In this document: positions 48,742 to 64,000 of the stretch, piece after piece
How the letters are laid out: every line of letters starts with the position of its first letter
Numbering within the stretch: position 1 is the first letter of the stretch
NCBI GenBank assembly: GCA_013215055.1
Contig: JABSRQ010000015.1
Location: 1-64,000 of the forward strand
Source: Pseudomonadales bacterium
GTDB lineage: Bacteria > Pseudomonadota > Gammaproteobacteria > Pseudomonadales > DT-91
DNA length: 64,000 nt
Direction of reading: 5' to 3'
Notes under the pieces: model-generated
Seen by the model: the letters and a program-made list of their open reading frames with translations, nothing else
Databases searched by the model: none
Told to the model about the DNA's origin: nothing
Position numbers and translations under genes: made by a program

Positions 48742-51183
48742 TCAGGATTTTTCAGATCTATCGACAAAAATGGCCATTGGAACACTACTCAGATGGATTG
48801 TACTGCCCCAAGAAATTAACAATCTTTGGACGTTTTTATCGCTAAACCCTTGTATTGGAATTATGCAGGAAAGCTTACATTGAATATTTTGCTGATCAAA
48901 GCTCTCTCCGTCGCACCCCAACGCATCGTCGATTGAAGACATTTCTCTTTGAGCAATTGTATGGGCCTTATCATACCGCGCCTCCAGCCCCTTCATGTAT
49001 TTAGAGGTTACAACCTTCCCTTTTGAACCTTTAGCGGCAATCAGCGTCTCCCTAAGAACAGAGCGTATCTCCCCTAACTTACCGGATTTACGCACTCTAA
49101 ATGCAGCAGAACAATTAATATTCAGTAAGAAATCCTTGGAGCTTATTAATGATGCTATGTCCAGCTGGACATCATCAATGGCGCAAGAGGCCAAAATTTC
49201 CATTTTACGGTGCGGGCTGTCCGATAAAATAAACGAGCCCGTTATCTGCGCAATCAACAACGAATATTCAAAATTAGGAGTCAGATTCGTTTTCATTAAC
49301 TGACCACCACCAGCTGAGTAAACATTATCCTGCAATAATGTAAGGGGATCTTCTGCACGCGTTTGGTGTACATGCTCTATTAGCGCCACGACACGCTCTT
49401 CGGGCATGTCAGGATAAGTCTCTAAAATTGACTGCCGATGATATGTATCTGGCATCATCTGGTATGCTCGCTTAGCATCCGCCTCCATTAACATACGCAA
49501 TTGACTGCTTTGCTCTTCATTCACCTCAGTATCTTTCAAGCGCTCCTCTGCCATGGACATCGCCTGTCTACCCAGATATGGATTCGCCACAAAAAGATCC
49601 GGTATTAAATTGATATACCCCTTCTTGATATAAGGCTCCAGCATCAACAGCAACATAATATTTTTCAAAGTATCGTGCTTATATTGATGTGGATTCTCCA
49701 GCGGAGAAAACTCTGGATTCATGAGTGCAGGATTTACAAAAGGGCTCACTACTAATATTTCATCACAATACAACGTCATACTAGTGATCGTAAGTGTAAT
49801 TGCCTGAGGATCCACAATCCCCGTATATAATGCCCTTAATGTGCCATCTGGCTTAGGTAATAAGCTGATGTAATCAGTATCTTTTGGCCAGAGATGACCA
49901 TAAAAACGATAAATCTCCTTAATCTGATCACCGCTCAGCTCCTTTCTTACATCATCCCACGTTTTACCATCATTCAACCCCAGCACATCAGTCACACAGT
50001 TGATAAATGCTAAATTACGCTCCCTTATACTTAAAACAGCTGAAGTGGACTTTTCCTCTTCACGCTTATTAAGACAGCATTTTTTATATTTCTTTCCACT
50101 ACCACAGCGACATAAACTATTCCGCCTCTGTTTTTTTACAGGCTTAACTTTCTGCAAGAATTCACTATCCGGATTTGTGCGCCCAAAGGCATCTTGATAA
50201 TAAGTACTGCCATCTTTGTACCCTACGAACATTTCTCCACCAAAATGAAACATTCCATTTTCCGGAGGTAGTAATACCCCCTTAAGCTCGCCCCAAGTAC
50301 AATTCACAGCCTTCTCTGGATAAAGCCACTCCCGCTCTCCAGCCGCTATATATCGTTTAGCCCTACACTTGACGATATAGTTTATTTTTTGAACGTCTGA
50401 AACACACAAGTTTCTCGACGTAATAAATGCATCAGTCCTTGCCATGCTTTGCGCAAAATGTCGGGCATTGGTTCTTTTTTCCAAGGGATCATTCAGGTCT
50501 GGATTTTTTGCATATTCATAGTTGGTCAAAATCAGGCAATGATCTTGATCAAGAACAAAAATTGTCTGACTGGCCTTCAGTGCAGTAGAGGGCTCATGTG
50601 GGTAGGCACAAGACTCAGAATCAAGTGGACAAGCGTGGTTGTAAACTGTCACTGGGTGATCAGAGACAATAAACTTCACTTCAGAATCTTTTGCTGAAAC
50701 TATCTCACGAACCCCCTCTGCCCACATCGTACAATGCAGAGTCCGCAGCCCTTGCATCTCCAGCATTAGCTCAACTTGATCTAGCTTGGGATATTGAGCC
50801 TGAATCCAGTCCAGCCCCTTGGGAGTACGAAGCTTCTGGGCATCTATAAATTCGAAAAAGTTTTGAAAGTGCTTATGCCATTGCCGTGGGTCATCTGAAG
50901 TAAAAGCCCTTACTGCCGCAGCACCAGTATCATCAATTTCGCCAAAGAGATAATTTTCAATATCATCATTAATGAATTCACCGAAGAATGTTGTATAGAG
51001 GTCAGTCTCAACAAAACTCAGTTTAGGTGACTGCCTTTTCAGGCTGTTTTTTGTACGCTCAACACCATTATGCACCACAACATCTGGAGCTAAATTCAGT
51101 ACATGGAGTTGATGCTGATTATCAGCTAAAAAACCTCTCTGATACCACTGAGGGACGTAATGATTTTCTCTTGTTTTCTTCAC
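48742..51183 (-). CDS. DUF4238 and SEC-C motif protein (candidate defence effector)
   Basis: 813 aa, soluble. Residues 1 to about 290 are DUF4238, starting with MKKTRENHYVPQWYQRGFL and carrying the FIVSDHPVTVY block. Near residue 360 is a SEC-C zinc motif, CRCGSGKKYKKCC, usual at the ends of SecA and of many fused proteins that need a metal knuckle. A further 430-residue C-terminal part has no family I recognise; it is alpha-helical with a cysteine-rich end. DUF4238 proteins are of unknown function and often appear in accessory regions. The gene follows a Lon-like AAA+ ATPase on the same strand with a 196-base gap. Confidence 0.8.
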   Translation of the reverse strand: MKKTRENHYVPQWYQRGFLADNQHQLHVLNLAPDVVVHNGVERTKNSLKRQSPKLSFVETDLYTTFFGEFINDDIENYLFGEIDDTGAAAVRAFTSDDPRQWHKHFQNFFEFIDAQKLRTPKGLDWIQAQYPKLDQVELMLEMQGLRTLHCTMWAEGVREIVSAKDSEVKFIVSDHPVTVYNHACPLDSESCAYPHEPSTALKASQTIFVLDQDHCLILTNYEYAKNPDLNDPLEKRTNARHFAQSMARTDAFITSRNLCVSDVQKINYIVKCRAKRYIAAGEREWLYPEKAVNCTWGELKGVLLPPENGMFHFGGEMFVGYKDGSTYYQDAFGRTNPDSEFLQKVKPVKKQRRNSLCRCGSGKKYKKCCLNKREEEKSTSAVLSIRERNLAFINCVTDVLGLNDGKTWDDVRKELSGDQIKEIYRFYGHLWPKDTDYISLLPKPDGTLRALYTGIVDPQAITLTITSMTLYCDEILVVSPFVNPALMNPEFSPLENPHQYKHDTLKNIMLLLMLEPYIKKGYINLIPDLFVANPYLGRQAMSMAEERLKDTEVNEEQSSQLRMLMEADAKRAYQMMPDTYHRQSILETYPDMPEERVVALIEHVHQTRAEDPLTLLQDNVYSAGGGQLMKTNLTPNFEYSLLIAQITGSFILSDSPHRKMEILASCAIDDVQLDIASLISSKDFLLNINCSAAFRVRKSGKLGEIRSVLRETLIAAKGSKGKVVTSKYMKGLEARYDKAHTIAQREMSSIDDALGCDGESFDQQNIQCKLSCIIPIQGFSDKNVQRLLISWGSTIHLSSVPMAIFVDRSEKS

Positions 51184-51379
51184 AATCCCCTCATTCTTAA
51201 GCTAACATGATAATATTGCAGTGAAGGATGCCAATAAAACCCCCACCACCACATTACCACCTTATGACTTAATACCCTCATACCGCTTAATACCTTTAAC
51301 AAACGCTATAACAACCTTTATAAATAAGACTAAAAAATGAGGAAAAAGGGGCCGTCACCCCCAGTAAACGGACAAAGAA

Positions 51380-52366
51380 CTAATTCGAATTAATAAACCC
51401 CATAACACGTCTACATACCAGCGTTTTCAGCTGTATGTCATCAAGCTGAATTTTGACAGATGATTTCCGTAAATTTTGCAAATTACTAGCACTTTTCCCA
51501 TCCAACGACCTTCGAAGGGCCTTAGCGATTGCAGCTTTCAGTACGCCCTCTACCTGTCTCGGCACCATCAGTGCGCACTTATCACTAACCGCTTTGGAAA
51601 CCTTTGGAGATAAATAAGGGCGAGTCAAATTCAGCTGAGCGTAGATATTCTTAATAACAGCCACCATCTGCCCCTTATCAGGCGTATCGACATAAAACAC
51701 AATGAAACGACTAAGTAATTCTGGCGGTATCTGCTCGATATAATTTGCAGTAGCAATAAAAGAGAATCCGGTCGTATCAAAGTTCACATCAAAGAAGTTA
51801 TCTCGAAACGATTTAGCCGTAATTTTCTCAAGTAACGCTAACCAAGCAGGCAGAATTAGATCTTGCCCAGATGTACCAATTTTATCGATCTCATCAATAG
51901 AACATAGTTGCGCAAACTGAGGGCTCTCGATAATTGCCTTTGAAAAAATTCCGGGAGCCCCATTGGAATACCTAAGATCACTTCCCGCTAAGGACTGGTT
52001 ATTATCAAGCACTCCACCCTGAACATTTACACAATTAATCTGAAGCACATCAGCAAGGATGAGTGCCAATTTGGTTTTTCCAATCCCCGGTGGGCCTATC
52101 ACTAAAATATTGGGGAACTCCACACATCCTTTAGCAACATAAGACTCCAACAAAGCATCAGCTATAGCCATAATAGGCTCCTTAAAGTTAGGCATATCAC
52201 CAACAAGAGCTTCAACTGCTCTAATCTGCTTGAGCGTAACTGGGACGATATCCTTTTCAGGTGGTGTTGTTGTAAGTAAATTCACCAACTTTCGCTGCTT
52301 TGAGTCATATTGACTCATAAAACACTCTAGGCTTGGCTGCTTCCACAAAGGGGCTGACATTTTCAT
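51380..52366 (-). CDS. Lon-like AAA+ ATPase without protease domain
   Basis: 328 aa. Walker A is GPPGIGKT with K98, Walker B is SIDEIDKIG (D158, E159), sensor 1 is ATANYIEQIP (N208) and the arginine finger follows (SR220). The block FRDNFFDVNFDTTGFSFIATAN strongly recalls the AAA module of Lon, where it reads FRDHYL..FDLS.V.F.ATAN. There is no N-terminal LON domain and no Ser-Lys protease. It probably remodels a partner, most likely the DUF4238/SEC-C protein encoded next. A later ATG (52318) gives MSQYDSK and is also possible. Confidence 0.82.
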   Translation of the reverse strand: MKMSAPLWKQPSLECFMSQYDSKQRKLVNLLTTTPPEKDIVPVTLKQIRAVEALVGDMPNFKEPIMAIADALLESYVAKGCVEFPNILVIGPPGIGKTKLALILADVLQINCVNVQGGVLDNNQSLAGSDLRYSNGAPGIFSKAIIESPQFAQLCSIDEIDKIGTSGQDLILPAWLALLEKITAKSFRDNFFDVNFDTTGFSFIATANYIEQIPPELLSRFIVFYVDTPDKGQMVAVIKNIYAQLNLTRPYLSPKVSKAVSDKCALMVPRQVEGVLKAAIAKALRRSLDGKSASNLQNLRKSSVKIQLDDIQLKTLVCRRVMGFINSN

Positions 52367-53115: not shown

Positions 53116-55977
53116 ATGGAAGACTTGTCGGTAACGCCCAACTTCATTGGAAAACTAATAGGTAAAATTAAAGAAATTCGTACTTCAAATGACGGAATAT
53201 CTTTAATTCACAAAAATAATAACGAAACAACCATACTATTCTCTGAATTAATCGATCTTCCAGTAGTTAAAACGAGCTTTTTAGGAAAAAAACTATCCCT
53301 TCAAACGATAAATGATAACTACAATCTGTCCTTTTTAAATAAAGAGCATTTTCATCAATCGCTCGAGATTATCAATAAAAGAGCTATTCAAGGTATTACT
53401 GAGAATGCTCAAAGAGTCCATTCAATATTTAAGAATAAAGCTATAGATGAATACTTCAGAGATTCTGAAGTAGAGTATTTAAATCAGGCAATCACCCCCT
53501 TAATCACCAATTATGAGTCTTCAAAGGAAAAGTGGAATAACTCATTTGATGCAAATGTTATTGATCAATTATCACTCATCTCTAGTTACATCCCATTAAA
53601 GGATAATATAAATCGAATCCGCAGTGAGTATGAGACGAAAACCCTAAGATTAAGAAAAGAATTTTATGATAAAACTGAATCTAATCCATTAACTGAGCAG
53701 CAAAGACTTGCAGTAATACGGAATAATGATCGAAACCTTGTGTTGGCTGCGGCTGGAACAGGGAAAACCTCAGTTATGGTTGCTAAAGCTCTTGACCTGA
53801 TAGAGTCTGGAAAAGCAAAAAAAGAAGAGATATTAATACTTGCCTACAATAAAGCAGCGTCTAAAGAATTAAAGGAAAGAATTATTCAGCGAGGCAGTTC
53901 ATGTGGAATATCAGAGAATAATTGTCCAAGTATTTATACGTTTCATGCTTTAGGGCGTCAGATTTTGAAAGAAGCCAAAATACAGACATACCTTTCAGAC
54001 TTTTCAGATGACCCCATTAAGCTTGAAATGTGGGTGTCTAAGTGGCTTGTAAATTATATTCAGGCAAGTCCTCAATCTCTAAAAACATTCATCGAACTAT
54101 CATCTCAGCCGATTAACCCATTTGATTTCAACTCTAAAGAAGAGTATGACGCATACGTTAGGGATAATGAGTATCGAACGCTTCAAGGAGAAAGAGTTAA
54201 AGGTTACCAAGAATTATTGATTGCAAACTGGCTTTTCATGAATAGTGTTGAATATGAATATGAAGCACCATACATAACCAAAAGGCGTATTGAAGTAGGC
54301 TTTGATTATCGCCCGGACTTTCACCTAAAGGGTTCGAACATCTACCTTGAACACTTTGGAATTGACAGGAACGGTAACACTAGAAAAGATATTGATAAAA
54401 CTCAATATTCCCTAGAAATGGAGAGTAAAAGACAGTTACATAATGAATGTCAGACGATATTACTTGAGACATTTCATTATGACTGGATTGAAGATAACCT
54501 TGAAGATCGCTTGAAGTATCTCATGGACAAAACGGGGATTGAAATCAAGGAGAAGACACCTGAAGAACTATTTGAAGTCCTTAAGAATACAGGAACCATT
54601 GAAAAATGTGCGCAACGTTATTTAAAATGTTTACAGGCAATTCGAGTCGAGCGATTAGATAAAGAGCTAATTATCGACAGGTTAAAATCCAATAAGATTG
54701 TAAAAGCGGTGCAATATAGTGAAATTCTAGATTCATTACATAGTGATTATGTCAAAGAACTCGATGAACAAGGAAAAATAGATTTTGACGACATGATCAT
54801 AAGGGCAATCAGCACAGTAAATTCCGGAGCTTTTACTCCTTCATGGAAACATATTCTTGTAGACGAATTTCAAGACATATCAAAAGCAAGAATGGACTTT
54901 TTAAATGCTCTTGTTGATCATGGAAAAAATCCGATATTAACTGTCGTCGGCGATGACTGGCAGTCCATCTACAGGTTTTCTGGCGGAAAGCTTGAATTGA
55001 CAACTCGATTTAATGATTTGGTTGGTAGTCACAGCCTAACAAAACTAGAGAAGACCTTCCGTTATAACAATAGTATTGCTAATACAGCTGGTACTTTTGT
55101 GATGAAGAATCCTGAGCAATATGAAAAGCATGTTACCACCCATACACACGTTGACTCTTCCCAAGTCTACCTTTTAGATAGCAAAGTTGATAATAAGAAT
55201 AACTTAGAAGATAAAGCTATTCAGATCATAAATACTATAAAGAAAAATGATCCAACAGGTTCGATTGCTATTCTCGCAAGATATAGATATTTGCTAAATA
55301 ACATAAAAGAAAATGTTAAATCAAACACACCCATTTCTAACGTAAAATACTGGACGTTTCATGGATCAAAAGGGTTAGAGGCTGATTACTGCATTTTAGT
55401 CGGCTTCTTCCAAGGAAAATCTGGGTTTCCTAACATGAATAAAGAAGAAGCTGTAGTTGAATCATTGCTACCAAGCTTGGATAGTTTCCCACATTCCGAA
55501 GAACGCAGATTGCTATATGTTGCAATAACCAGAGCTAAGAAAAAATGTTATTTAATAGCAGACTCAATGGCACCTTCAGAGTTCATCAATGAACTATTAA
55601 CCCCTCAATACGACCTGCATATTGCATCTCAAACGTTTGAAGAACGCTATAGGAAGATATTTAAATGTCCGATATGTACTGATGGATATTTCCGTTTAGT
55701 ATCCGGGAAGTATGGTGAATTTTATAGCTGTTCTTCAGGATCGATATGCAACTCTAAACCAAGAAAGTGTGAAAGTTGTGGTGCACCATCTATAGACACC
55801 CACAAGGAGAGTGTTTGCAATAATGTGACATGCGGGCATAAAAAACCTATTTGCGATCGTTGCGGCAGACCGATGAAATTGAAGGATGGTAAATTTGGAA
55901 AAAAATTTTTTGGGTGTACGGGCTTCGGAATCAAGGACGACCAATGTAAGCATACTAGAAAGTATATTGGTGTTTAA
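53116..55977 (+). CDS. HelD-like superfamily I helicase with nuclease-like insert and zinc fingers
   Basis: 953 aa. A helical N-terminal part (about 190 residues) comes before the UvrD-type core: Walker A AAAGTGKTSVMVAKA (GKT at residue 216), motif II VDEFQDIS (about 582), motif III GDDWQSIYRFSGG, motif V KYWTFHGSKGLEAD and motif VI LLYVAITRAKKK. Between motifs Ia and II an insert has the block FDYRPDFHLKGSNIYLEHFG (D401, E412), like a PD-(D/E)XK nuclease fold also found in HelD helicases. The C terminus has two or three topoisomerase-type C4 zinc fingers (CPIC, CESC, CDRC). Start ATG 53116. It may be a defence or repair nuclease-helicase. Confidence 0.85.
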   Translation: MEDLSVTPNFIGKLIGKIKEIRTSNDGISLIHKNNNETTILFSELIDLPVVKTSFLGKKLSLQTINDNYNLSFLNKEHFHQSLEIINKRAIQGITENAQRVHSIFKNKAIDEYFRDSEVEYLNQAITPLITNYESSKEKWNNSFDANVIDQLSLISSYIPLKDNINRIRSEYETKTLRLRKEFYDKTESNPLTEQQRLAVIRNNDRNLVLAAAGTGKTSVMVAKALDLIESGKAKKEEILILAYNKAASKELKERIIQRGSSCGISENNCPSIYTFHALGRQILKEAKIQTYLSDFSDDPIKLEMWVSKWLVNYIQASPQSLKTFIELSSQPINPFDFNSKEEYDAYVRDNEYRTLQGERVKGYQELLIANWLFMNSVEYEYEAPYITKRRIEVGFDYRPDFHLKGSNIYLEHFGIDRNGNTRKDIDKTQYSLEMESKRQLHNECQTILLETFHYDWIEDNLEDRLKYLMDKTGIEIKEKTPEELFEVLKNTGTIEKCAQRYLKCLQAIRVERLDKELIIDRLKSNKIVKAVQYSEILDSLHSDYVKELDEQGKIDFDDMIIRAISTVNSGAFTPSWKHILVDEFQDISKARMDFLNALVDHGKNPILTVVGDDWQSIYRFSGGKLELTTRFNDLVGSHSLTKLEKTFRYNNSIANTAGTFVMKNPEQYEKHVTTHTHVDSSQVYLLDSKVDNKNNLEDKAIQIINTIKKNDPTGSIAILARYRYLLNNIKENVKSNTPISNVKYWTFHGSKGLEADYCILVGFFQGKSGFPNMNKEEAVVESLLPSLDSFPHSEERRLLYVAITRAKKKCYLIADSMAPSEFINELLTPQYDLHIASQTFEERYRKIFKCPICTDGYFRLVSGKYGEFYSCSSGSICNSKPRKCESCGAPSIDTHKESVCNNVTCGHKKPICDRCGRPMKLKDGKFGKKFFGCTGFGIKDDQCKHTRKYIGV

Positions 55978-55989
55978 TCAGACACATAG

Positions 55990-56017
55990 CCTCCGACAGT
56001 TGAGGCGGGCGTTATAC
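55990..56017 (+). repeat. attC-like 3' end (GCGGGC-GTTATAC)
   Basis: GCCTC-N8-GAGGCGGGCGTTATAC lies just after the helicase stop. The end GCGGGCGTTA is like the 3' end of Vibrio-type attC sites (GTTRRRY core). The 5' RYYYAAC half is not clear. Confidence 0.35.
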
Positions 56018-56035
56018 CTAAATGAGTTCTGCTAA

Positions 56036-57085
56036 ATGTTAGATTTCGAGTACGATTTTCCAATTTATGCGCAACGAATAATCGACAAATTGGTCGAACG
56101 AAATTGGCTGATTCATTCTTTGCGTTTAGACAATAAAAATGACATATATAACCCGGCAGGTTTTTTATACAACGCGGAGTATAATAATCTTGAATATACT
56201 ATTCATTTAGACCTAAATATCTATCAATATGTACTAAGTGCATATAAGAAGAGAAATAAAAAGGATCTACATAGAGATGCCATAGCGCTAATAGTATTTG
56301 CAAAGTTTACAAATATAATTTTTGACCCGACTATCGCTATATATGAAAAATTAAACTATTTAGATGAATGCCCTGATGAAATAATCGATGATCTGTCACT
56401 TTTTAGAAAGATTGATAATTCAAATATGGATGCATTAGCTGATTTCGCTCTAGGTTATTCTAATCAGATTCCATTGGCGGAAATATCACCAATTGAAAGG
56501 GATAAACTAAAATGCAACCTTATTCAATATAGACGATTAAAACGGTGGGATACATTCTATCTGTTCACTCTAAAAATAACTGAACTCTATTATTTCGACA
56601 ATTCTAAAAATGAGGAAAAGGTCAGTAAATTTTTAGATTGGTGTTTTAAAGATTTTCTTTATTCACTTGTAGCAATATCATTTGTTCTAATGTTGCTGGG
56701 TAAAGTACCTTTATCAAAGCTTATGAAGTATAAGCTAAGTATGAGTAATAATGATAAGAGAAAATCACTGGTCAATATGACTTGGGATCTTTTTCTGATT
56801 GATAAATTCTTTGAACAATGGGTACAAAAAGTAAAAGGTAAAGAGTTCCTATATGCAAGTAACGATGCGCCATTAAAGGAAGTTCTGGAAATTGCCATCT
56901 CGATACAAGAAGAAGGCAACGGCAATCATTTACAAGAAGTTATCTCTACATCTCTGATCAATAAAATCAATGAAGTTAGCTGCATGATGAAAGAAACTGA
57001 AGGCAGGAATATAAATGATGTTAGTGATTTTAAAACGTATAGAGATAAGCTAATTAACCAAGCAGAAACGGTTGTTCTGTCATGA
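56036..57085 (+). CDS. PIN-like nuclease-fold protein (inferred)
   Basis: 349 aa, no signal peptide. I recognise no exact family. The order of acidic residues is PIN-like: D59 in IHLDLNIYQYVL (hydrophobic strand, then D-x-N), E104 in AIYEKLNY, D251 in NMTWDLFLIDKFF and D277 in LYASNDAPLKEV near the C terminus. In PIN proteins four such acids bind the metal for RNA or DNA cutting. An internal hydrophobic segment (VAISFVLMLLGKVPLSKLM) lies about residue 218-236. It begins 58 bases after the helicase and could belong to it. The start is TTG/ATG at 56036 (MLDFEYDF). Confidence 0.45.
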   Translation: MLDFEYDFPIYAQRIIDKLVERNWLIHSLRLDNKNDIYNPAGFLYNAEYNNLEYTIHLDLNIYQYVLSAYKKRNKKDLHRDAIALIVFAKFTNIIFDPTIAIYEKLNYLDECPDEIIDDLSLFRKIDNSNMDALADFALGYSNQIPLAEISPIERDKLKCNLIQYRRLKRWDTFYLFTLKITELYYFDNSKNEEKVSKFLDWCFKDFLYSLVAISFVLMLLGKVPLSKLMKYKLSMSNNDKRKSLVNMTWDLFLIDKFFEQWVQKVKGKEFLYASNDAPLKEVLEIAISIQEEGNGNHLQEVISTSLINKINEVSCMMKETEGRNINDVSDFKTYRDKLINQAETVVLS

Positions 57086-57099
57086 ATTCGGCCACACTC

Positions 57100-57145
57100 A
57101 ACAAGTGTAGCCCACTTTTTTTGTCCGCTTAAGCGGACGTTAAAC
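57100..57145 (+). terminator. Terminator hairpin plus perfect palindrome and attC-like end
   Basis: AAGTG-TAGCC-CACTT followed by seven T forms a terminator after the PIN-like gene. Directly after it lies a 16-base perfect palindrome, GTCCGCTTAAGCGGAC (57123-57138), then GTTAAAC. The last part is attC-like (core GTTRRRY), with an ACTCAAC that fits RYYYAAC some 40 bases before it. Confidence 0.5.
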
Positions 57146-57163
57146 TCTAGGAGAGATAGGAAG

Positions 57164-57970
57164 TTGAAGGAGTATCGTTCAATAGATGAATATAAGCTTG
57201 CTGTCGATTCACTGCACAGCGTATGTGGACTTATTCTATTTTCTTTTGCCTCTCATGAGTGCAGCGAAAAGGATATTATCCTAAGAAACTCTGTAGCTAA
57301 GGCATCAATGTCCCTAAAAGGGATTTTTTCTCTTTGGGAAATTGAAAATTATCAAGATTGCTGGGTTCTTTACCGATCATTACAAGATCGCTTTTTTCAT
57401 ATAAACCATTTAAATGAAAACAATCTATTTAAAGAATTTTCTGATTGGTCTTTTTATGAGCAAATGAAGTCCCATAATCTAATGAAAAGTGACTTAGATT
57501 TTAAAGGTACATTCGAAGACATTGCCTTAAATAATTCCTCTAAAAATAAAGACAGGTATAAGTATTTGTCAAAAAACAAGCCCTCATGGAGAAGGCCGAA
57601 AGCCAGAGATGTTGCAAAAGAAATGGATATGGGCTTTTTATATAAATTTGGATACGACTTGGCATCAGCACATGTTCACCCTATGGCCAATGATGGCCAA
57701 GAAGACTTCCATACTATTACGAAGATACCACCAATACACAAATTTCCCTCACATATCACAGTTATCAATAATTCTATTCTCATATGTACCATGATTATTC
57801 AGGAAGCAATGAATGGTAGTTCATTCAAATGGAGAAGAGTGTTGTGGGATTATATCGATCAGATAAGATCTTTTCTGGATGTTGGCTCAAATGATTATCA
57901 GCTTACATTTATAAAACTCGCAAAGTCTCACCAAGAACTGGGCTTATGTGAAGAGGCTGGCGTTATATGA
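57164..57970 (+). CDS. DUF5677-like protein
   Basis: 268 aa, helical and soluble, no signal peptide. The central pattern (AKASMSLKGIFSLWEIENYQ, then LYRSLQDRFFHINHL) is like the DUF5677 family, which has an R-x-L-x-E/D helix and a later His (here SAHVHPMANDG). Role unknown, though such genes are common in accessory regions. Starts with TTG at 57164 after a GGAGAGATAGG ribosome-binding site (57151). Ends in GGCGTTATATGA, a third attC-like end. Confidence 0.55.
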   Translation: MKEYRSIDEYKLAVDSLHSVCGLILFSFASHECSEKDIILRNSVAKASMSLKGIFSLWEIENYQDCWVLYRSLQDRFFHINHLNENNLFKEFSDWSFYEQMKSHNLMKSDLDFKGTFEDIALNNSSKNKDRYKYLSKNKPSWRRPKARDVAKEMDMGFLYKFGYDLASAHVHPMANDGQEDFHTITKIPPIHKFPSHITVINNSILICTMIIQEAMNGSSFKWRRVLWDYIDQIRSFLDVGSNDYQLTFIKLAKSHQELGLCEEAGVI

Positions 57971-59401: not shown

Positions 59402-59635
59402 ATGTCCAATAGAAACAAAACCTTAGACTCGCCCCTAATCGAGAATACAGCAAGAAACATTAAGCAGATCCGTTTAAAGCTAGGTCTATCGCAGGAAGAT
59501 TTAGCAGCCCTATCGGGTCTTCACAGAACATACATTGGATCAGTTGAACGTGGAGAAAGGAATATTACTCTTACTACACTAGAAAAATTGTCAGAAACAC
59601 TTGGCGTTGCGCCTGAAAAACTACTTGAGAAGTAA
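59402..59635 (+). CDS. Controller (C) protein of a restriction-modification system, XRE family
   Basis: 77 aa with a helix-turn-helix covering residues 15-72 (NIKQIRLKLGLSQEDLAALS, then GLHRTYIGSVERGERNITLTTLEKLSETL). The pattern is typical of C proteins such as C.AhdI and C.PvuII. A C-box lies upstream, so it is expected to activate and then repress itself and the endonuclease gene. The stop and the endonuclease ATG overlap (TAATG), as in other C-R operons. Confidence 0.92.
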   Translation: MSNRNKTLDSPLIENTARNIKQIRLKLGLSQEDLAALSGLHRTYIGSVERGERNITLTTLEKLSETLGVAPEKLLEK

Positions 59636-60366
59636 TGATGAGTCATGATGAGAAAGGAATTCCAAAGGATATATTAGAACTCTGCAAGAAGGTAACCGCT
59701 AAGAGAGCTAGAACCGTAATTGACCACCTTTTAGTGCATGAGTACATTACAACGGAGGAGCTCAAAAACACATACGGTTACGATCATCCTCCGAGAGCTA
59801 TCAGAGATGTAAGAGAGCAAGGAATCCCTCTTGAGACGTTTAAAGTTATCAGCACAACAACAGGAAGGAAGATTGGCGCCTACAGATTTGATAAGAATAA
59901 TAAAGTAAAGAATGGGAGAATCGGTGGACGTTCTGCTTTCCCAAAATCGTTCAAAGACGCTTTGATTGAAAGGTATGACTCAAGAATCACCACAACTAAC
60001 GAAAAAATAGAACCTCGATATCTTCAAATAGATCATCGAATTCCATACGAAGTAGCAGGAAATGAAGCTGAGCTATCAAACTTAGATGAATTTATGCTAC
60101 TAGATGCTTCTGCTCAAAGAGCAAAAAGTTGGTCGTGCGAAAGTTGTGAAAATTTTAAGCACCTCCATAGTACAGATACCTGTAGACGATGCTTCTGGGC
60201 ATTTCCTGAAAAATATGATCATGTTGCAATGAAGGAAGAAAGGACGTTATCGATTACTTGGAGCCAAGACGAAATCAATGCGTATAACCAATTGTGCAAC
60301 AAAGCTAACAATTTGAAAACTACGCCTCAAGCACTAATAAAACAGTTATTTAAAGACGAAAGCTAG
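59635..60366 (+). CDS. Type II-like restriction endonuclease, HNH family
   Basis: 243 aa. A helical N-terminal part with a predicted HTH (about residues 20-65) is followed by the HNH block: YLQIDHRIPYEVAGNE (D133, H134) and a zinc-binding set C168-x2-C171 and C183-x2-C186. H134 and the following residues should form the cutting site. Cysteines C168 to C186 sit where HNH enzymes carry a structural zinc. It is translationally coupled to the C protein and convergent with the methyltransferase genes. The cut sequence cannot be told. Two ATGs are in the first codons. Confidence 0.85.
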   Translation: MMSHDEKGIPKDILELCKKVTAKRARTVIDHLLVHEYITTEELKNTYGYDHPPRAIRDVREQGIPLETFKVISTTTGRKIGAYRFDKNNKVKNGRIGGRSAFPKSFKDALIERYDSRITTTNEKIEPRYLQIDHRIPYEVAGNEAELSNLDEFMLLDASAQRAKSWSCESCENFKHLHSTDTCRRCFWAFPEKYDHVAMKEERTLSITWSQDEINAYNQLCNKANNLKTTPQALIKQLFKDES

Positions 60367-60428
60367 CAAATAACCCCCTCTTTTTAACGGTAATATTAGA
60401 GTGGATAAGGAAATGTTTCTTCTAGCTA

Positions 60429-61322
60429 TTACGAAAAAATTGCCAGCTGCTCATTTCGCTTAATACCCAATTTATTTTTTTCAACAAGAGCAGGAGATAG
60501 GTAGAGAGACTCTATAGTTATATCATCTCTACCTAATAAAATAGCTTGAGCTGATCGACCAGCATCCAACCCTACTTTCTGCAAATTAAGAAAATCCGGT
60601 AACTCTTTCCCATAAGACTTATCACCGCACGTCCCATCAAATGAGAGCAGGAATGGAACCCCTCTTTTATTCAGATCTGCCATCCCTTCAATCAACAGTT
60701 CTAAATCTAATAAGTACGCATACCTAGAATCTTTTTTATTACTCGTGCCCTGCCAAGGAGGATCCATATAAACAATATCTTCAGCTGCTGCCGAAGATAA
60801 TATTTCCATGAAGTCACCAGCAATCATTTCTGATTTACCCTTTAACATAGAAGATATCATTAATGACTCCTTTTCAACTTTCTTAGGATTCATTCCCAAC
60901 CTTCTATTGTCAGCTGATTGATTAAAGTCTCCATTCCCATTGAATCTAATTGCATTTTTTACGCATCTAGCAACTAAATACAGAAACTGCACTGGATCTT
61001 TATCTTTATTAAACTCATCTCTTATTTTGAGAAAGTAAGCCTTAGGATCATCTAATTGTGCGTGCCATATTGAAGAATATTGTGTAGCCACATATTCGGG
61101 CTGATTGACTATAAGCTTCCACAACTCCACAAGAGGAGAAAACTTATCCCCTATTACGTAGCCGACTCCCATTTTGTTAGCTGCTGACGCTAGAGTTATA
61201 GCTGCTGAGCCAGCAAAGGGTTCATACAAGCGGCCTGTAACATCATATTCAATATTTGTAAGTATTTTTTCAGCTAACTTACGCTTACTACCCTGATATG
61301 GAATAACATGCGGTATTCTCAT
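60429..61322 (-). CDS. D12-class (Dam-like) adenine-N6 DNA methyltransferase
   Basis: 297 aa. Motif X is PYQGSKRKLAEKIL (about 8-21), motif I is YEPFAGSAAITLA (AdoMet site) and the catalytic motif IV is MDPPW (187-190); this order defines the D12/alpha class that makes N6-methyladenine. A specificity part lies between them (about residues 60-180). It is the protecting enzyme of the HNH endonuclease. It overlaps the small HARE-HTH gene upstream by four bases (ATGA). Recognition sequence unknown. Confidence 0.93.
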   Translation of the reverse strand: MRIPHVIPYQGSKRKLAEKILTNIEYDVTGRLYEPFAGSAAITLASAANKMGVGYVIGDKFSPLVELWKLIVNQPEYVATQYSSIWHAQLDDPKAYFLKIRDEFNKDKDPVQFLYLVARCVKNAIRFNGNGDFNQSADNRRLGMNPKKVEKESLMISSMLKGKSEMIAGDFMEILSSAAAEDIVYMDPPWQGTSNKKDSRYAYLLDLELLIEGMADLNKRGVPFLLSFDGTCGDKSYGKELPDFLNLQKVGLDAGRSAQAILLGRDDITIESLYLSPALVEKNKLGIKRNEQLAIFS

Positions 61323-61612
61323 TTTTCTAAATCTCTTTCCAAAAACAATTCGTCAATAAAAACACTGTAATATATTGCTCCTCCCCTCTTTGAGGCCTGA
61401 AACAATAGGGCCTCACCTTTTTCGATTCGCCTCTTTTCTCTCCTATAAATGATTGAATAAAGCGATTTATTAGGTGTTTTTCCAGTGAGGGAGTTAGGAG
61501 AACGATTTATTATATTCTCAACTATTTCATTAATAGTTAATGGCTCTTTTTCTTCCAATAGAACATCAATCATTAACTGTTCTAAAGAGCTAACATTTCT
61601 ATTCCAAGACAT
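61319..61612 (-). CDS. Stand-alone HARE-HTH protein coupled to the methyltransferase
   Basis: 97 aa, all of it one winged-helix domain: SSLEQLMIDVLLEEKEPLTI, then NEIVENIINRSPNSLTGKTP and SLYSIIYRREKR. This is the HARE-HTH pattern (HB1/ASXL/restriction endonuclease HTH) usually found as a domain within restriction enzymes or chromatin proteins. It is translationally coupled to the methyltransferase. It could help specificity of the methyltransferase or the endonuclease, or regulate the M operon. Confidence 0.8.
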   Translation of the reverse strand: MSWNRNVSSLEQLMIDVLLEEKEPLTINEIVENIINRSPNSLTGKTPNKSLYSIIYRREKRRIEKGEALLFQASKRGGAIYYSVFIDELFLERDLEK

Positions 61613-62000: not shown

Positions 62001-64000
62001 ATGTATAAAAAAAATTACTCACTGATCTTCTCCCCCTCTGACCTTACTCAATTTGTTGAAAGCCCATTTGCATCATGGATGGATCACTTTTCTAAAGCCC
62101 ATCCTGAAAAAGCCCCTGAAGCTGATGAAGCCGATAGCATGATGACCCTGTTGCAGGAAAAAGGGGAGGTGCATGAACATCAAGTACTTGAAGGATTGAG
62201 AGCCCAAGGGCTGAGCGTGGTGGATCTATCTACTGCTGAAGATAAAGCTCAAGCCACGGTTGATGCGATGCATTCCGGTGCAGAGGTTATATTTCAAGCT
62301 TGCTTAGAAAAGGCTCCATTCAGGGGATTCTCTGATTTTCTTGTGAAAGTCGCTGGTGACAGTGATCTTGGCAATTATCATTATGAAGTGTGGGATACCA
62401 AGCTTTCTAAGGAAGTTAAACCTTATTTTGTAATTCAACTGTGCTGCTATGAAGACATGGTTGCTCAGATTCAAGGCAGGCGCTCAGAAGAAATGGTCGT
62501 CGTTCTGGGCAATGACATCCATGAACGCTTGAGAACAGACGATTATTACTTCTACTACGAATCCGTAAAGCATGCATTTTTAGCCATGCATGATGGCTTT
62601 GATCCAGACAATCACCCCCACCCTGCTAATTCTACAAGCTGGGGCAACTGGGGATCTTATGTAAAACAACTGCTGATTGAGCAGGATCACCTTTCACAAG
62701 TAGCCAAAATTACTCGCAATCAAATAAAGAAATTTGAAGATGCAGGAATCTCTACAGCTCATCAATTAGCTGAAATCACCGCGCCAAATATATCGGGCAT
62801 TCAACCCGCTGTATTAGAGCGTTTAAAAGCTCAGGCTGCGATTCAAATAGCAAGTGCAGGCAAAGAGGTGCCAGAGTTTATAATTCTCCCTCATGAGGCT
62901 GGGAAGCGGCAAGGGCTGGCGTTAATGCCGCCACATTCAGATCTGGATGTATTCTTCGACATTGAAGGTTGCCCTTTGATTGATGGTGGACTGGAGTACC
63001 TCTGGGGCAATACTTACTTTGATGGCAATGGAGATAAGCAGTTCATAGACTTTTGGGCGCATGATGCTGAACAGGAGAAACTGTGCTTCCAAGATTTTAT
63101 TCGGTGGATTTACGCTCGATGGATAAAAGACCCCAGCATGCATATTTATCATTATGCTAATTATGAGATAGCGGCTTGTCGTAAATTAATGAGCCGCTAT
63201 GGCGTATGCGAATATGAAGTCGACCAGCTTCTGCGCAATGAAGTCTTTGTTGATCTCTACAAGGTGGTAAAAGGCAGTATTCTTCTTGGCGAACCCAATT
63301 ACTCCATCAAAAGTGTTGAACACATCTACCGCTCTAAACGTGAAACTGAAGTGGGCAATGGTGGTGATTCTGTCGTTGTTTATGAACGTTGGCGTGAAAA
63401 CCCTGATGGGCTAACGTGGGACACATCTAAAATTTTGAATGATATTCGTGATTACAATATTGACGACTGTGATAGCACCCAAGAACTTGTGGATTGGCTA
63501 AGGGAACGCCAGCAGGAGCAAGGTATAACCTATCAGGGTAAAACAGAAGTTTTTGAGCCAGAGTTAAGTGAAGAAGTAACTGATCGCACCAAACTGAGAG
63601 ATCGCCTTCTGGATAAATCCGCCACTTTTTTAGCTGTAAAAACGGATGACAACAAAGAAGAAATGTTAAGAAAGTCTGCTCTACATGAAAATCTTGCATG
63701 GATGCTGGAGTTTCATCGCCGTGAAGCCAAACCTGTGTTTTGGCGTTTATTTGATCGCCTTGGATTGAGCCATACCGAACTGATTGATGATCTGGATTGT
63801 TTAGCTAATTGTGAAAGAACTGAAACAGAAGCGTATAAGCTGACTGCAAGAAAGAAAAAACAATGCTTCGAATACAGCTTTGATCCTAGTCAGGAGTTTA
63901 AGCTTGCTAATGCCTCAAATTTTTATTTACTGGGCGAAGAGGATGAAAATGGTAACAGGCCAAAGGTAACGCTTGTTAAAAATGATTCTGACTTTATTAA
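62001..64000 (+). CDS. TM0106-family RecB-like/RNase H-like nuclease, 3' end beyond window
   Basis: 666 residues visible, open to the window end. The RecB-like PD-(D/E)XK core is seen in VWDTKLSKEVKPYFVIQLCCYEDMV (D132, K134, the Q-L-x2-Y motif). A helix-hairpin-helix region follows (KKFEDAGISTAHQLAEI), then an RNase H-like exonuclease domain with DVFFDIEGCP (D320, E322) and IYHYANYEIAACRKL. This order is that of TM0106 proteins, which normally carry a superfamily I helicase next; it should lie past the window. Start ATG 62001. Likely part of a defence or repair function. Confidence 0.87.
   Translation, partial: MYKKNYSLIFSPSDLTQFVESPFASWMDHFSKAHPEKAPEADEADSMMTLLQEKGEVHEHQVLEGLRAQGLSVVDLSTAEDKAQATVDAMHSGAEVIFQACLEKAPFRGFSDFLVKVAGDSDLGNYHYEVWDTKLSKEVKPYFVIQLCCYEDMVAQIQGRRSEEMVVVLGNDIHERLRTDDYYFYYESVKHAFLAMHDGFDPDNHPHPANSTSWGNWGSYVKQLLIEQDHLSQVAKITRNQIKKFEDAGISTAHQLAEITAPNISGIQPAVLERLKAQAAIQIASAGKEVPEFIILPHEAGKRQGLALMPPHSDLDVFFDIEGCPLIDGGLEYLWGNTYFDGNGDKQFIDFWAHDAEQEKLCFQDFIRWIYARWIKDPSMHIYHYANYEIAACRKLMSRYGVCEYEVDQLLRNEVFVDLYKVVKGSILLGEPNYSIKSVEHIYRSKRETEVGNGGDSVVVYERWRENPDGLTWDTSKILNDIRDYNIDDCDSTQELVDWLRERQQEQGITYQGKTEVFEPELSEEVTDRTKLRDRLLDKSATFLAVKTDDNKEEMLRKSALHENLAWMLEFHRREAKPVFWRLFDRLGLSHTELIDDLDCLANCERTETEAYKLTARKKKQCFEYSFDPSQEFKLANASNFYLLGEEDENGNRPKVTLVKNDSDFI

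Follow-up and report, generated by a model that had tools for sequence, protein, structure and literature searches.

The locus described here raises the question of whether three genes lying in a row form one defence system or have simply come to rest side by side. The window, by which we mean the whole stretch of 64,000 nucleotides that was analysed, contains three consecutive open reading frames on the plus strand, coding for proteins of 953, 349 and 268 amino acids and separated by gaps of 58 and 78 bp (Table 1). A preliminary description had seen in them two nucleases and a helicase belonging to a single nucleic-acid attack system, and had also allowed that they might be separate cassettes. 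Our results favour separate units: we consider it probable that these are three separately acquired accessory genes in a low-GC defence island beside a type II restriction-modification set, and that the helicase-nuclease, the PIN-like protein and the DUF5677 protein need not act together. The three genes have a GC content of 32-36%, whereas the figure for the initial 47 kb of the window is 45%. In the neighbouring restriction-modification set, PADLOC recognizes the restriction enzyme (PDLC03566, 1.7e-44) and a Dam-like methyltransferase (PDLC03341, 5e-74).

Table 1. Coordinates of the three genes, of their domains and junctions, and of the adjoining restriction-modification set, in window positions.
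Feature	Position	Strand	Basis or context
SF1 (UvrD / DNA helicase IV-like) helicase, 953 aa	53116..55977	+	ORF, PF00580, NF008276, plasmid homologues
Inserted nuclease domain (predicted), helicase residues 336-480	54121..54555	+	Alignments, AlphaFold, Z scores, T7 endonuclease I profile
C4 zinc ribbons, C851-C944 of the helicase	55666..55947	+	PF01396 in two stretches, invariant Cys
Helicase/349-aa junction, 58 bp	55978..56035	.	Small GC-rich hairpin; without T-run, without attC arms
PIN-like protein, 349 aa	56036..57085	+	ORF, homologues, invariant acids
Codon of D59	56210-56212		349-aa gene
Codon of E104	56345-56347		349-aa gene
Codon of D251	56786-56788		349-aa gene
Codon of D277	56864-56866		349-aa gene
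349-aa/DUF5677 junction, 78 bp	57086..57163	.	Hairpin plus T7, palindrome, ribosome-binding-like site
Terminator-like hairpin plus T7	57090-57122		After the 349-aa gene
Palindrome GTCCGCTTAAGCGGAC	57123-57138		In the 78-bp junction
AGGAGA, ribosome-binding-like site	57149-57154		Upstream of the DUF5677 gene
DUF5677 protein, 268 aa, TTG start	57164..57970	+	PF18928 5.2e-21, conservation
Type II restriction-modification set	59402-61612		Right of the three genes; Pfam, PADLOC

If the three genes did form one attack system, the helicase-nuclease would process invading DNA, the PIN-like nuclease would cut RNA or DNA, and the DUF5677 protein would regulate or assist. The common strand and short gaps, the similarly low GC content and the abundance of defence genes in the surroundings all speak for such an arrangement. 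Yet when loci from elsewhere were searched with profiles of all three families, a member of a second family was found in none of the 20 loci of the helicase, the 8 of the PIN-like protein and the 14 of DUF5677; for the PIN-like protein the sample is small. The loci had mean lengths of 10.4, 10.9 and 3.3 kb, respectively, so that those of DUF5677 show immediate neighbours only; loci taken from whole genomes had flanks of about 1.5 kb. That no two of the three genes occur together in these 42 other loci, that the helicase has no fixed neighbour gene on annotated plasmids, and that a terminator-like hairpin stands between the 349-aa and DUF5677 genes all argue against a joint system, which we regard as improbable. 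Gene cassettes of an integron, bounded by attC sites, are a different matter, and were suggested by what had been taken for attC-like ends between the genes. The genome does contain two full integron integrases above the curated cut-off (contigs C412 and C101), and a palindrome followed by GTTAAAC resembles the end of an attC site. Nevertheless, a scan combining consensus and folding found no attC site at either junction, where complementary outer arms are missing, and the same scan detected candidate attC sites on contigs C101 and C74, both with integron-integrase matches, serving as a positive control. Furthermore, the motif at 57127 occurs only once in the 7.2-Mb genome. We hence rejected the attC reading, and integron cassettes are very improbable here; the proposal of separate cassettes survives insofar as separate units fit the data better, but not in its integron form.

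The junctions also bear on transcription. Terminators had been placed between the genes, which agrees with our observations for the second junction only. There, reading the sequence directly and then folding it revealed a hairpin resembling a terminator, followed by seven T. A formal terminator scan lists none at 57090-57122, probably because the T-run starts three bases past the stem. In contrast, no terminator was found when the 58-bp junction after the helicase gene was scanned and folded, and the helicase and 349-aa genes may therefore share a transcript. Co-transcription is allowed by the common strand and the short gaps.

The first of the three proteins is an SF1 helicase of the UvrD type (PF00580, 9e-42 in a Pfam scan). 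Alignment with its homologues shows that Walker A, Walker B and the further SF1 motifs are intact, the motifs present being AAAGTGKT, LVDEFQD, GDDWQSIYRF, TFRYN, GSKGLEADY and VAITRAK. Its best curated family is DNA helicase IV (NF008276), with a score of 393.4 bits that does not reach the curated cut-off of 543 bits. Judging from these scores the protein is a relative of DNA helicase IV and not an equivalog; the earlier designation as HelD-like is right as regards the SF1/UvrD class and the nearest family. The match to NF008276 is split into two stretches, and the gap between them houses an insert. The SF1 core is the same as that of E. coli HelD (DNA helicase IV), whereas the inserted nuclease domain and the C4 zinc ribbons are extras of this helicase. 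With an E value of 0.04 against NF041254, it is not of the HelD/HelR kind that recycles RNA polymerase. Seven homologues were found on plasmids, with 33-53% identity and a coverage of 83-97% of the protein. Comparison of six sequences (the helicase and five of its plasmid homologues) shows conservation of the SF1 motifs and of the zinc-ribbon cysteines; the latter are invariant, confirming the C4 zinc fingers that had been noticed.

We also considered whether this could be the helicase of a Gabija system. GajB models do match the UvrD core (1e-39), that is, its generic part, but they exclude the insert and the zinc ribbons, and a PADLOC scan of the neighbouring proteins found no GajA, the OLD-family nuclease of that system. 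With no GajA nearby and a GajB match that is generic, the identification was discarded. A search of the literature found no description of this helicase architecture.

The insert had been described as PD-(D/E)XK-like on the strength of D401 and E412, and both residues indeed lie in the predicted nuclease domain and are invariant. E366, D401, E412, K438, R439 and E451 are kept in 12 of 12 sequences (the protein of the window and 11 homologues from viral contigs), and H442 in all but one of them. E366, D401 and E412 are also invariant in the alignment with the plasmid homologues, E366 being a third acid that the preliminary description had missed. Two related helicases (L087 and L088) lack the insert, which is hence modular. 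A model of the insert built with AlphaFold from the 12 sequences reached a pLDDT of 90.8. Structurally, the model comes closest to I-Bth0305I, a homing endonuclease (Z 10.8, rmsd 2.3 over 96 residues), and, among DNA-bound enzymes, to Vsr (Z 8.8, rmsd 3.4 over 118 residues). Foldseek matches to the PDB alone were weak (best E 0.02), and those to viral models included homing, mismatch and restriction endonucleases. Independently of the structural match, the sequence profile of the insert leads to T7 endonuclease I (E 4e-4), with E366, D401 and E412 aligned on the equivalent acids of that enzyme. The model thus predicts with confidence a PD-(D/E)XK fold of the Vsr/EDxHD kind.

This predicted fold would be common to the insert, Vsr, I-Bth0305I (EDxHD) and T7 endonuclease I, and the E..PD..E pattern aligns with that of the last. 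Unlike these enzymes, the insert sits inside a helicase and has no lysine at the expected position: residue 414, two after E412, is Phe or Tyr throughout the family (F414 here), where T7 endonuclease I has Lys. The conserved K438, R439 and H442 of the insert stand further on, and the invariant K438 may take the place of a displaced catalytic lysine. We infer a self-contained helicase-nuclease, which ATP hydrolysis most likely drives along DNA, whose zinc ribbons would hold the DNA, and whose Vsr/T7-endonuclease-I-like insert in the helicase core would cut it, with a catalytic lysine that is either displaced or absent. Such a protein would be a compact helicase-nuclease of marine plasmids and proviruses. 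PADLOC reaches it through the generic UvrD core only, and a single gene suffices to test it.

Scans of Pfam, NCBIfam, PHROGs and PADLOC assign the 349-aa protein to no family. Its own family is rare, with members in 2 of 369 genomes of its class (own genome included), and no homologue was found in phage records. Nine plasmid records contain homologues, and three more were recovered with a relative as the query; they are mostly plasmid-borne and share 19-27% identity with the 349-aa protein. Two pattern matches (L044 and L045) proved unrelated once scored and were set aside. The copy on Burkholderia pYS1 (L007:5854-6963) is spread across two reading frames and appears to be disrupted.

To assess conservation, we aligned the protein of the window with seven homologues, which come from Paenibacillus and from several classes of Proteobacteria. 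Only 11 columns are invariant in these 8 diverged sequences, among them D59, N61, E104, W250, D251 and D277. The presence among so few columns of all four acids that had been proposed to fit a PIN nuclease (D59, E104, D251 and D277) is far beyond chance. The motifs consist of a hydrophobic stretch followed by DxN, a short hydrophobic stretch followed by E, WD, and a hydrophobic stretch followed by (S/T)xD. This order of residues and these contexts are those of PIN motifs I-IV, and the 349-aa protein has them in common with PIN-domain nucleases such as VapC and PIN_8. It differs from them in the spacing between the second and third acids, E104 and D251, which is 147 residues and much shorter in ordinary PIN domains, and in the lack of a Pfam PIN match, which holds for all 8 family members. 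Profile comparison (hhalign) with VapC-type PIN proteins aligned motif I only, with E values of 0.009-0.04; the alignment at E 0.009 scored 19.8, whereas none of 40 column shuffles exceeded 15.2. The same comparison with PIN_8 yielded nothing for the family; VapC against PIN_8, used as a positive control, gave an E value of 1e-4. A profile search of the PDB with the 349-aa protein returned nothing, a search of viral and genome contigs found no homologues fit for structure prediction, and a single-sequence AlphaFold model was uninformative (pLDDT 36.6). Of the initial assignment, then, the four acids are upheld by their invariance, but significant similarity to PIN profiles is missing, and we call the protein PIN-like and no more.

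The surroundings of the homologues give further indications. On a Rhizobium plasmid (L004:5707-10560) the PIN-like gene immediately precedes an IetAS pair (IetA 2e-88, IetS 7e-124), and in Paenibacillus it adjoins, and follows, an LA2681-HEPN gene. DndB is found near it on Vibrio plasmids, HipA in Vibrio lentus, and both HipA and a nucleotidyltransferase-HEPN protein in Caulobacter. No neighbour is constant, and many are of defence or toxin type. A fixed upstream partner was considered and rejected since the upstream genes are mutually unrelated, coding for an alpha/beta-hydrolase fragment, a membrane protein, an exoribonuclease-like, a PLD-like and a HEPN protein. By guilt by association, the PIN-like gene looks like a solo gene of defence islands.

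For both proteins, a different reading has to be weighed. The helicase could be of a repair type, carried on mobile elements, with an insert that has a nuclease fold but is inactive and binds DNA. Its closest curated family, DNA helicase IV, points in this direction, and the insert could be inactive given the Phe or Tyr at position 414, the canonical lysine position of PD-(D/E)XK enzymes. However, the invariance of E366, D401, E412, K438 and R439 is hard to reconcile with a dead site, and the distribution, patchy and mobile, also speaks against this reading; we find it unlikely, and retain that of a helicase-nuclease. In the same way, the 349-aa protein might be a metal-dependent enzyme with four conserved acids that is not a PIN nuclease. 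The lack of a Pfam PIN match in any of the 8 members, the weak profile comparisons and the poor single-sequence model are in keeping with this, but the way in which the invariant residues are ordered and embedded fits PIN motifs I-IV, and on balance we doubt the non-PIN reading. Our own reading, put forward tentatively, is that the 349-aa protein is the founding member of an unrecognized family of PIN-like nucleases associated with defence, in which a large insertion separates motif II from motif III and whose gene stands alone, close to other defence systems, on plasmids found in Proteobacteria and Bacillota. As a PIN-like protein it would most likely be a metal-dependent RNase that acts alone in defence islands, with D59, E104, D251 and D277 binding the metal and the long insertion lying between motifs II and III. 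None of the four family libraries scanned detects this family, which lies close to known defence genes. If its members are RNases it adds a candidate for single-gene defence, and the four invariant acids offer an immediate mutational test. Both this family and the helicase with the Vsr/T7-endonuclease-I-like insert merit follow-up.

The third protein had been called DUF5677-like, and it is a member of that family (PF18928, 5.2e-21), with 75.9 bits against a gathering cut-off of 27.1. The family was found in 13 of 180 sampled genomes, and the protein shows nothing notable in comparison with it. In an alignment of 15 DUF5677 loci, 14 keep R71 and 14 keep H172; as these residues lie 101 residues apart, they do not form the Rx4-6H motif of HEPN proteins, which was thus ruled out. 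That the protein might be an RNase of the abortive-infection type is our guess. In the literature, DUF5677 occurs in one unrelated paper.

Other genes were observed on both sides of the locus. To the left of the helicase gene, the minus strand codes for a DUF4238 protein of 813 aa with a SEC-C motif and for an AAA ATPase that stands alone (48742-52366). The restriction-modification set on the right also includes an HTH regulator and a HARE-HTH protein, and at the end of the window (62001-64000, continuing to about position 65411 of the contig) there begins an ORF of 1136 aa that reads like a RecB-like nuclease protein.
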